NCBI GenBank assembly: GCA_020050835.1
Contig: JAGVKB010000139.1
Location: 62,001-126,000 of the forward strand
Length of the DNA stretch: 64,000 bases
Source of the DNA: Candidatus Obscuribacterales bacterium
GTDB lineage: Bacteria; Cyanobacteriota; Vampirovibrionia; Obscuribacterales; Obscuribacteraceae
Direction: 5' to 3'
In this document: positions 37,995 to 42,006 of the stretch, piece by piece
How positions within the stretch are numbered: position 1 is the first letter of the stretch
Layout of the letters: each line of letters starts with the position of its first letter
Notes under the pieces: model-generated
What the model was told of the DNA's origin: nothing
The model's input: the letters and a program-made list of their open reading frames with translations, nothing else
Databases searched by the model: none
Translations under genes and position numbers: made by a program

Positions 37995-38068
37995 TGGAGC
38001 GGGTAGCGGGAATCGAACCCGCGTGTGCAGCTTGGAAGGCTGCCGTTCTACCATTGAACTACACCCGC
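37995..38068 (-). tRNA. tRNA-Gly (anticodon TCC)
   Basis: On the minus strand a complete 74-nt cloverleaf. Acceptor GCGGGTG pairs with TACCCGC, the D arm is GTTCAATGGTAGAAC, the anticodon arm GCAGC-CTTCCAA-GCTGC gives anticodon TCC, the T arm contains GGTTCGATTCC, and CCA is encoded. It reads toward the dehydratase gene. Confidence 0.96.
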
Positions 38069-40405: not shown

Positions 40406-40434
40406 TTGACACGACTGCTCGCCGAAGCTAAGAT
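40406..40434 (+). promoter_or_regulatory. Near-consensus promoter of aspS leader
   Basis: TTGACA (40406-40411), a 17-bp spacer and TAAGAT (40429-40434). Transcription would start near 40441, about 20 bases before the leader peptide ATG. Confidence 0.75.
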
Positions 40435-40459
40435 TTCTCAATCAAACGCAGGTACCATT

Positions 40460-40594
40460 ATGGCTCCCACTCACATAATAGCCATACGAGCGCTCTCCGC
40501 AGCCGCAAGCACGGCGGCGGCTTCGTCCTGCGTTGACCGCAACAATAATAATGACAATCGGGCGTTCTTGCGGTCTTTCGGTATGAGCTTCTGA
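40460..40594 (+). CDS. Leader peptide of aspS attenuator
   Basis: A 44-codon frame with ATG at 40460 and TGA at 40592-40594, placed between the promoter and the terminator hairpin upstream of the synthetase gene. Codons 26-33 read D-R-N-N-N-N-D-N, a run of five Asn and two Asp codons (40535-40558). Such runs stall ribosomes when the matching charged tRNA is scarce. The N-terminal half (MAPTHIIAIRALSAAA) has no obvious role. An AGG lies seven to eight bases upstream. The peptide itself is probably not functional after synthesis. Confidence 0.8.
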   Translation: MAPTHIIAIRALSAAASTAAASSCVDRNNNNDNRAFLRSFGMSF

Positions 40595-40649
40595 GTTAAT
40601 CAAGCACTAATTACTCCGACCGCAAGATTCATCAATCTTGCGGTCTTTT
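40535..40649 (+). promoter_or_regulatory. Transcription attenuator with alternative hairpins
   Basis: Four segments: 1 = GACCGCAA (40535-40542), 2 = TCTTGCGGTC (40566-40575), 3 = GACCGCAAGATT (40618-40629), 4 = AATCTTGCGGTC (40634-40645) followed by TTTT. Segments 3 and 4 form a 12-bp terminator; 2 and 3 can form a 10-bp antiterminator; 1 and 2 can pair over 8 bp. A ribosome stalled on the Asn codons would cover segment 1 and free 2 to pair with 3, allowing read-through into the synthetase gene. Confidence 0.85.
40618..40649 (+). terminator. Intrinsic terminator of the attenuator
   Basis: Perfect 12-bp stem with CATC loop and four T, ending only six bases before the synthetase ribosome-binding site GAGAGG (40655-40660). 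Confidence 0.85.
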
Positions 40650-40668
40650 GTGATGAGAGGTTTCAATC

Positions 40669-42006
40669 ATGGAGACAGTGGAGATCCAAGCGAGTCAAGC
40701 CGAGGCGGCCATAGGCAGCCACGCTCGCTTGCGCGGGCATGTCTACGCAATGCGCCGACTCGGCAATCTGGCATTCATAGTTTTGCGCGACCCGACCGGC
40801 ACCATTCAGCTCGTTGTAGAAGACCCCAAGCTGCTCGAAGCTACCAGCTTACTGACCGCTGAAACTCCGATTGTAGTAAGCGGAAAACTGGTTAGAAACC
40901 GAAAACCAGGCGGTAAGGCAGAATTGCAATTGCAAGAGCTGGCAATCCTCAGCACACCGGGCAACACGCTACCGGTCGAGATTGGGAAAGACCAGCGGAT
41001 CGAAGCGTTGTCTCTGGCAAGCATGCTCGATTACCGGCCGCTCACACTGAGAAATGAAAGGACCAGAGCGATTTTCAAGATAGAAGCCGCTTTGTGTGCG
41101 GCATTTCGTCACTTCCTGTCACAGAATCGGTTTACCGAAATTCACTCACCGAAGATAGTTTCCACCGGAACGGAAGGCGGCGCACAGCTATTCAAACTCG
41201 ACTACTTTGGCCGCCCGGCCTTTCTAGCACAGAGCCCACAGTTCTACAAACAGATTATGGTTGGCGTTTTCGAGCGAGTTTTCGAGATTGGCCCGGTCTA
41301 CCGTGCCGAAGAGCACGATACCTCCCGCCACCTCAATGAGTACGTGAGCATGGACCTCGAGTTCGGGTTTATCAGTAGCGAGCAAGACATCATCGATTTG
41401 CAAGTCGGTCTGCTGGCGCACATGTTCGAGCATCTTCAGGCTACCTGCTCACGCGAGCTTGCCATGCACGGCGCAACCGTGCCGACAGTGACCGCCATTC
41501 CGCAAGTCACCTTAGAGGAAGCGGCAAGAACCCTGATCGATAGGCTCGGCTGGCAGCCGACCGACGCCGCCGGCAGGAAGCTGGCGGCCTCCGAAGTGGA
41601 AGATCTCGACCCGGACGGTGAGCGTCTTCTCTGCCAGTACTTCGGAAAGACGGAGAACTCCGAGCTCGTTTACGTCACGCATTATCCGCTCAAAGTGCGG
41701 CCATTCTATGCCATGCCGCTGGCTGAAACCACTTTGAGTCGCAGCTTCGATCTACTTTTCCGCGGACTCGAGATTACGACGGGCGGACAGCGTATCCACG
41801 ATTACGATCAATTAATCGGCAACATGACCGGCCGAGGGCTGGTTGTCGACAACTTTTCGGACTATTTGCAATGCTTTCGATACGGTATGCCGCCGCACGG
41901 CGGTCTGGCCATCGGGCTGGAGAGATTGGCCAAACAACTGTTGGGTCTGCCCAACGTCAAGCTCGCGGCCCTTTTCCCTCGCGACCGCAATCGCCTCAGC
42001 CCCTGA
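40669..42006 (+). CDS. aspS: Aspartyl-tRNA synthetase, archaeal/non-discriminating type
   Basis: A 445-aa class IIb synthetase. The N-terminal OB-fold anticodon domain (RLRGHVYAMRRLGNLAFIVLRD) precedes a catalytic domain with AQSPQFYKQIM, motif 2 RAEEHDTSRHLNEY and motif 3 GLAIGLERL. It lacks the GAD insertion of typical bacterial AspRS (about 590 aa), placing it in the short AspRS2 group. Members in bacteria often also charge tRNA-Asn with Asp, which GatCAB then amidates. The Asn-rich leader peptide upstream supports that role: low Asn-tRNA would raise expression. The ATG at 40669 has GAGAGG eight bases upstream. Confidence 0.9.
   Translation: METVEIQASQAEAAIGSHARLRGHVYAMRRLGNLAFIVLRDPTGTIQLVVEDPKLLEATSLLTAETPIVVSGKLVRNRKPGGKAELQLQELAILSTPGNTLPVEIGKDQRIEALSLASMLDYRPLTLRNERTRAIFKIEAALCAAFRHFLSQNRFTEIHSPKIVSTGTEGGAQLFKLDYFGRPAFLAQSPQFYKQIMVGVFERVFEIGPVYRAEEHDTSRHLNEYVSMDLEFGFISSEQDIIDLQVGLLAHMFEHLQATCSRELAMHGATVPTVTAIPQVTLEEAARTLIDRLGWQPTDAAGRKLAASEVEDLDPDGERLLCQYFGKTENSELVYVTHYPLKVRPFYAMPLAETTLSRSFDLLFRGLEITTGGQRIHDYDQLIGNMTGRGLVVDNFSDYLQCFRYGMPPHGGLAIGLERLAKQLLGLPNVKLAALFPRDRNRLSP

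Follow-up and report, generated by a model that had tools for sequence, protein, structure and literature searches.

An Asn/Asp-codon leader, probably a ribosome-mediated transcription attenuator, upstream of archaeal-type aspartyl-tRNA synthetase genes in Obscuribacterales

The aspS2 locus and its leader

The window, by which we mean the whole stretch of 64,000 nucleotides analyzed from a Candidatus Obscuribacterales bacterium, a member of a family with large genomes that is related to cyanobacteria, carries on its plus strand the gene aspS2 (40669 to 42006, ATG at 40669). Its product of 445 amino acids matches NF003483 (517.7 bits; cutoff, 353) and, narrowly, TIGR00458 (373.9; cutoff, 368.4), both of which are named aspartate--tRNA(Asn) ligase. 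The best solved structure is 1n9w, the AspRS2 of Thermus thermophilus, for which the PDB entry gives a non-discriminating enzyme of the archaeal type, and the closest relatives come from Obscuribacterales/Melainabacteria assemblies. Judged by these matches, aspS2 encodes an archaeal-type aspartyl-tRNA synthetase of the Asn pathway (AspRS2), which would load Asp onto tRNA-Asn. Residue 26 (40744 to 40746) aligns with Trp26 of the archaeal enzyme of Thermococcus (1b8a); in the clade of AspRS2 proteins described below, this position is mostly Gln, otherwise His or Tyr, rarely Glu or Leu, and never Trp, and a residue other than Trp is possibly a marker of relaxed tRNA specificity. A loop proline known from the literature, however, is mostly absent from the clade. 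The gene 3′ of aspS2 lies on the opposite strand, and therefore, the transcript probably carries aspS2 alone. Elsewhere in the window, a tRNA gene was detected on the minus strand (38000 to 38068, 64.7 bits), truncated by the boundary of the region scanned.

Upstream of aspS2, and on the same strand, lies a leader that starts with a sigma-70-type promoter (40406 to 40434), made up of TTGACA (40406 to 40411), a 17-base spacer, and TAAGAT (40429 to 40434). A scan of upstream DNA revealed a TTGAC-N17/18-TANNNT site 5′ of the codon run in nearly all of 42 relatives. The promoter is followed by a frame of 44 codons (40460 to 40594; ATG at 40460, TGA at 40592 to 40594) encoding the leader peptide MAPTHIIAIRALSAAASTAAASSCVDRNNNNDNRAFLRSFGMSF, in which codons 26 to 33 (40535 to 40558) read GAC CGC AAC AAT AAT AAT GAC AAT, that is, D R N N N N D N. 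Four segments can form alternative hairpins. Segment 1 (GACCGCAA, 40535 to 40542) may pair over 8 bp with 40568 to 40575 in the predicted fold. Segment 2 (TCTTGCGGTC, 40566 to 40575), which lies inside the leader frame and covaries with segment 3, is the 5′ arm of the antiterminator. Segment 3 (GACCGCAAGATT, 40618 to 40629) is the common arm and serves as both the 3′ arm of the antiterminator (10 bp, through its part 40618 to 40627) and the 5′ arm of the terminator. Segment 4 (AATCTTGCGGTC, 40634 to 40645), followed by TTTT (to 40649), is the 3′ arm of an intrinsic terminator with a 12-bp stem and compensatory changes in relatives. Compared with shuffles, the terminator region folded with a z-score of −6.6 and the antiterminator region alone with a z-score of only −2.1. 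The ribosome-binding site of aspS2, GAGAGG (approximately 40654 to 40659), is located 3′ of the terminator and outside its stem. A preliminary description of the locus, made from the window's sequence, had listed the promoter, the 44-codon frame, codons 26 to 33, the four segments, helix lengths of 8 bp (1:2), 10 bp (2:3), and 12 bp (3:4), and the ribosome-binding site, all of which match the sequence to the base. In two of the relatives (L126 and L132), the leader ATG is only 9 nt past the −10 box, and their leader peptides may therefore be translated from leaderless or nearly leaderless RNA.

Conservation of the codon run and the competing helices

AspRS2 of this kind is present in 44 of the 53 Obscuribacterales genomes examined, and class-wide, in a sample of 289 genomes, it occurs in only one family. 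One of the 44 genes (in G010) is located at a contig end; of the remaining 43, which have upstream DNA, 42 are preceded by an Asn/Asp-rich leader frame. These 42 genes form one clade (support, 0.78), and the exception, the AspRS2 of genome G013, falls outside it, grouping with clostridial and other sequences in a separate clade; hence, the presence of the leader follows the AspRS2 gene lineage exactly. The G013 gene, for which the best 8-codon window upstream holds three Asn/Asp codons, was probably gained separately. A T-box suspected by eye upstream of it had no Rfam match even at an E value of 0.1. The G013 genome (71% complete) has no match to AsnRS either.

A covariance model built from 37 leaders matched 41 genomes with one strong match each, always upstream of aspS2; since the sources of the model are among the 41, the informative part of this search is the absence of other strong matches. 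There were no matches in the nine genomes without AspRS2, and one further weak match was partial (34 positions; E value, 0.03). The AspRS2 genomes missed by the model are G010, G013, and G020, the last of which has a leader (L133) that was found by its codons and pairing instead. A self-search of the genome at the DNA level returned the locus alone, together with the terminator stem matching itself on the opposite strand, and no attenuator was seen upstream of the genome's own asnS, aspS1, gatB, and asnB-like genes. Among the AspRS2 loci of other phyla in the search, the leader was not found, with the exception of L066 (Caldilineaceae). Upstream of this AspRS2, at 2528 to 2870, a weak T-box match (55 bits, below the cutoff) precedes a short frame, MDDDNDDNNAFQLIESGVR, and then a GC-rich hairpin of considerable length that adjoins the ribosome-binding site, and L066 is possibly a tandem of a T-box and an Asp/Asn leader.

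The Asn/Asp-codon run is present in all 42 leaders of the clade. Its 350 codons comprise 222 Asn and 104 Asp codons, that is, 326 RAY codons, and a single Lys or Glu (RAR) codon, and T and C both occur in the third positions (AAT and AAC, GAC and GAT). This combination argues that selection acts on the amino acid and not on a DNA repeat, and the RAY codons appear to be held in frame by almost complete purifying selection. An AAT microsatellite, considered as a source of the run, is ruled out by the same codon counts. The best window of 8 codons contains 8 Asn/Asp codons in 17 leaders, 7 in 13, 6 in 9, and 5 in 3, and thus at least 6 in 39/42, with a range of 5 to 8. Shuffles of the same upstream regions gave 2 to 6, mostly 2 to 4, and reached 6 in 3 of 1,290 cases.

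An antiterminator helix between the run and the terminator is likewise found in 42/42 leaders, with a mean z-score of 4.7 against shuffled segment 2 (range, 1.5 to 9.5; weak in L095, L099, and L124). Segment 3 pairs with both segment 2 and segment 4, and compensatory Watson-Crick changes were counted at 9 of 12 positions of helix 2:3 and 10 of 13 positions of helix 3:4, counts that are biased towards structure by an alignment laid out by the helices themselves and for which the shuffle test of segment 2 is the independent control. Pairing is kept through changed sequence, as in CTTGCGGTT with GACCGCAAG, GCGGTCGTC with GACGACCGC, GCTGGTGG with CCACCAGC, and GGGTTGC with GCAACCC. Terminators between leader and gene were scored automatically in 38 leaders; those of L119, L122, L128, and L130, which automatic scoring missed owing to a gene start placed too far upstream, were read from the sequence. 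Spacings are constant, with 26 to 43 nt from the run to segment 2 and mostly about 21 to 44 nt from the stop codon to the terminator. In most leaders, the stop codon lies 13 to 36 nt past the start of segment 2, and therefore, a ribosome at the stop codon would cover segment 2 only partly.

Alternative-structure folding of the 38 leaders predicted the required switch in every case. With the run masked and segment 4 absent, the antiterminator was predicted in 38/38 leaders, and with the RNA masked to 12 nt past the stop codon, the terminator was predicted in 38/38, each with a mean probability of 0.96. With all of the RNA present, the terminator was predicted to be more stable than the antiterminator in 30/38 leaders; on these folds, the outcome must be set kinetically while the RNA is still being transcribed, as it is in classical attenuators. 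As for the four alternative segments of the preliminary description, helices 2:3 and 3:4 are general, but the 1:2 hairpin, although present in the predicted fold of the window, is not. Some 1:2 hairpin, varying in position, is seen in many leaders but is not conserved as a class, and since the antiterminator is still predicted in 31/38 leaders when the RNA is untranslated, we leave the hairpin out of the parts that we regard as general. The check in relatives that the preliminary description proposed supports its central claim of an Asn/Asp-codon attenuator upstream of an archaeal-type AspRS gene: the relatives keep the codon run and the two competing hairpins, with covariation.

The Asn-tRNA pathway and the proposed mechanism

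The source genome encodes AspRS1, AsnRS, GlnRS, GatA, and GatB, the last two above cutoff. Its tRNA-Asn has the acceptor stem TCCCGAG/CTCGGGA with U1-A72 as the first pair, which is required by bacterial GatCAB (PMC4206432). With GatCAB (expected by the preliminary description and known here from GatA and GatB) and such a tRNA-Asn, the genome appears to be equipped for tRNA-dependent Asn synthesis. With GlnRS in the genome, Gln does not depend on GatCAB, which is therefore likely to serve the synthesis of Asn. The preliminary description had expected asnS to be absent and had named a separate asnS, which would make the logic unnecessary, as a refutation; asnS is present, which by the letter counts against the proposal, and AsnRS was found in 45 of the 53 Obscuribacterales genomes examined. 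Two AsnB-like proteins pass the general asparagine-synthase cutoff (TIGR01536) and score higher against a polysaccharide-linked amidotransferase model. Asn-tRNA could therefore also be supplied otherwise. The logic of Asn sensing survives the presence of asnS because GlnRS is present too, as in Deinococcus and Thermus, which keep AspRS2 and GatCAB to synthesize Asn on tRNA (PMC4206432), and by its gene content our genome has the same arrangement.

In our model, transcription would start from the promoter at 40406 to 40434, and a ribosome would follow, translating the leader peptide. If Asn-tRNA (and probably also Asp-tRNA) is scarce, the ribosome would stall on the Asn/Asp codons, some 30 nt short of segment 2, leaving segment 2 free to pair with segment 3 before segment 4 is made; helix 2:3 would prevent formation of the terminator, and aspS2 would be transcribed. 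If Asn-tRNA is plentiful, the ribosome would pass segment 2 to the stop codon, helix 3:4 would form, and transcription would stop about 20 nt before the start of aspS2. AspRS2 would load Asp on tRNA-Asn and GatCAB would amidate it to Asn; since the two make Asn-tRNA, the sensed molecule would be the pathway's own product, and control would be exerted by the end product. The anatomy of the leader, its conservation and covariation, its single copy per genome, and its gene partners, all observed here, are taken as a whole best explained by a ribosome-mediated transcription attenuator, which we regard as very probable; stalling, termination in the cell, and the specificity of the enzyme are inferred. 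That such attenuation works by ribosome stalling is a part of the model that we put forward with great confidence, and it is probable that Asn is the main signal. Points against the model are the greater predicted stability of the terminator in the full RNA of most leaders, the lack of a general 1:2 hairpin, the other possible sources of Asn-tRNA, and the partial cover of segment 2 by a ribosome at the stop codon.

The share of Asp in the signal is a closer question. At least two Asp codons stand beside Asn in every one of the 42 leaders, and Asp codons outnumber Asn codons in four, among them L092, which is the nearest relative (DRDDDN), and L133, which is divergent (NDDDD), as would be expected if the leader sensed both amino acids equally, that is, tRNA-Asn and tRNA-Asp of a non-discriminating AspRS and not Asn alone. 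However, Asn codons outnumber Asp codons in 34/42 leaders, and Asn usually comes first in the run, where a stall would best free segment 2; the genome has a separate AspRS1 for tRNA-Asp; and GAY and AAY are one base apart, so that drift between them is easy. Equal sensing is therefore a serious but somewhat disfavored reading. A lesser role of Asp beside Asn as the main signal is slightly favored: the Asp codons persist, and Asp-tRNA, which a non-discriminating AspRS also makes, may be sensed.

The remaining readings dispense with charged-tRNA shortage as the cause of a stall, or with the ribosome altogether. Short leader frames combined with hairpins are also used in peptide-dependent arrest, as known for drug-resistance leaders, and it is imaginable that stalling is caused by the N/D-rich nascent peptide or by an effector bound to it. 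In arrest peptides, certain residues are usually invariant, whereas here the leaders differ freely in how many N and D they have and in what order, and the leader peptide outside the run, both before and after it, is variable in length and not conserved in the 42 orthologous leaders, which makes arrest improbable. Direct sensing of tRNA by a T-box-like RNA, with the frame being incidental, is brought to mind by the T-boxes that the same search showed upstream of clostridial and Chloroflexota AspRS2 genes (L049, L078, and L083), but is very improbable: no Rfam family matches the leader, the leader region of the window being unmatched by the T-box model (RF00230) at E values up to 1, and a T-box would not need RAY codons kept in frame. 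Least credible, and only barely so, is an ordinary terminator of an upstream transcript next to a low-complexity AAT repeat. In a single genome the run is indeed AT-rich and repeat-like, but the ratio of RAY to RAR codons, the antiterminator in 42/42 leaders, the three-way covariation, the single copy per genome tied to aspS2, and the conserved promoter upstream all speak for regulation, and thus for the attenuator.

Comparison with known control systems

Ribosome-mediated transcription attenuators are known for trp, his, leu, thr, ilv, and pheST. The aspS2 leader resembles the trp/his/pheST type in having a leader peptide with control codons, an antiterminator that competes with an intrinsic terminator, and a structural gene downstream. 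It departs from that type in using Asn and Asp as control codons, in serving an archaeal-type AspRS2, in occurring in Obscuribacterales, in having segment 2 within the leader frame, and in lacking a general 1:2 protector hairpin. Among synthetase genes, trpS and leuS of Streptomyces have attenuator candidates (PMC1262725). The preliminary description knew of no standard account of attenuation for AspRS2, and we too found no description of an attenuator for Asn, Asp, or AspRS, or in Obscuribacterales, in the open literature searched. The mechanism is thus known for other amino acids, and what appears to be new is the use of Asn/Asp codons and AspRS2 as the target. If the model is true, Asn and Asp join the amino acids sensed by attenuation, and Obscuribacterales join the lineages that use it.

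The AspRS2/GatCAB route to Asn on tRNA is widespread, and why it is kept by cells that also have AsnRS is a standing question. The closest parallel is the two-route system of Deinococcus radiodurans and Thermus thermophilus, which likewise has AspRS1, AspRS2, AsnRS, GlnRS, and GatCAB (PMC4206432), and the closest solved AspRS2 structure, 1n9w, is that of Thermus. An attenuator is not mentioned for these organisms in the text of PMC4206432 consulted, whereas in Obscuribacterales a dedicated Asn-codon attenuator is kept in all 42 related genes, which suggests that AspRS2 serves these cells as an inducible enzyme of biosynthesis that is turned on by a shortage of Asn-tRNA.

In Clostridium acetobutylicum, AspRS2/GatCAB is under T-box control (Saad et al. 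2012, J Biol Chem 287:20382, as cited in PMC4206432). The enzyme is of the same kind, and in both cases its expression would follow the charging of Asn-tRNA; in the clostridial system, the RNA binds the tRNA directly, whereas here the ribosome would read Asn codons, and the two RNAs are unrelated. T-boxes lie upstream of AspRS2 in two clostridial loci (L078, 2635 to 2873; L083, 2634 to 2880) and one locus of Chloroflexota (L049, 2692 to 2958), with an apparent AAC (Asn) specifier in L078 and L083 and GAC (Asp) in L049, as read by eye from the alignment. Two unrelated RNA devices therefore appear to serve the same enzyme. We tentatively propose, with just under an even chance of being right, a family-specific class of attenuators that reads the codons of both tRNAs of a non-discriminating AspRS, controls the pathway by its own end product on tRNA, and is independent of the clostridial T-box solution. 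If the attenuator model is true, the leader does by means of a reading ribosome what the T-box does for this enzyme in clostridia.
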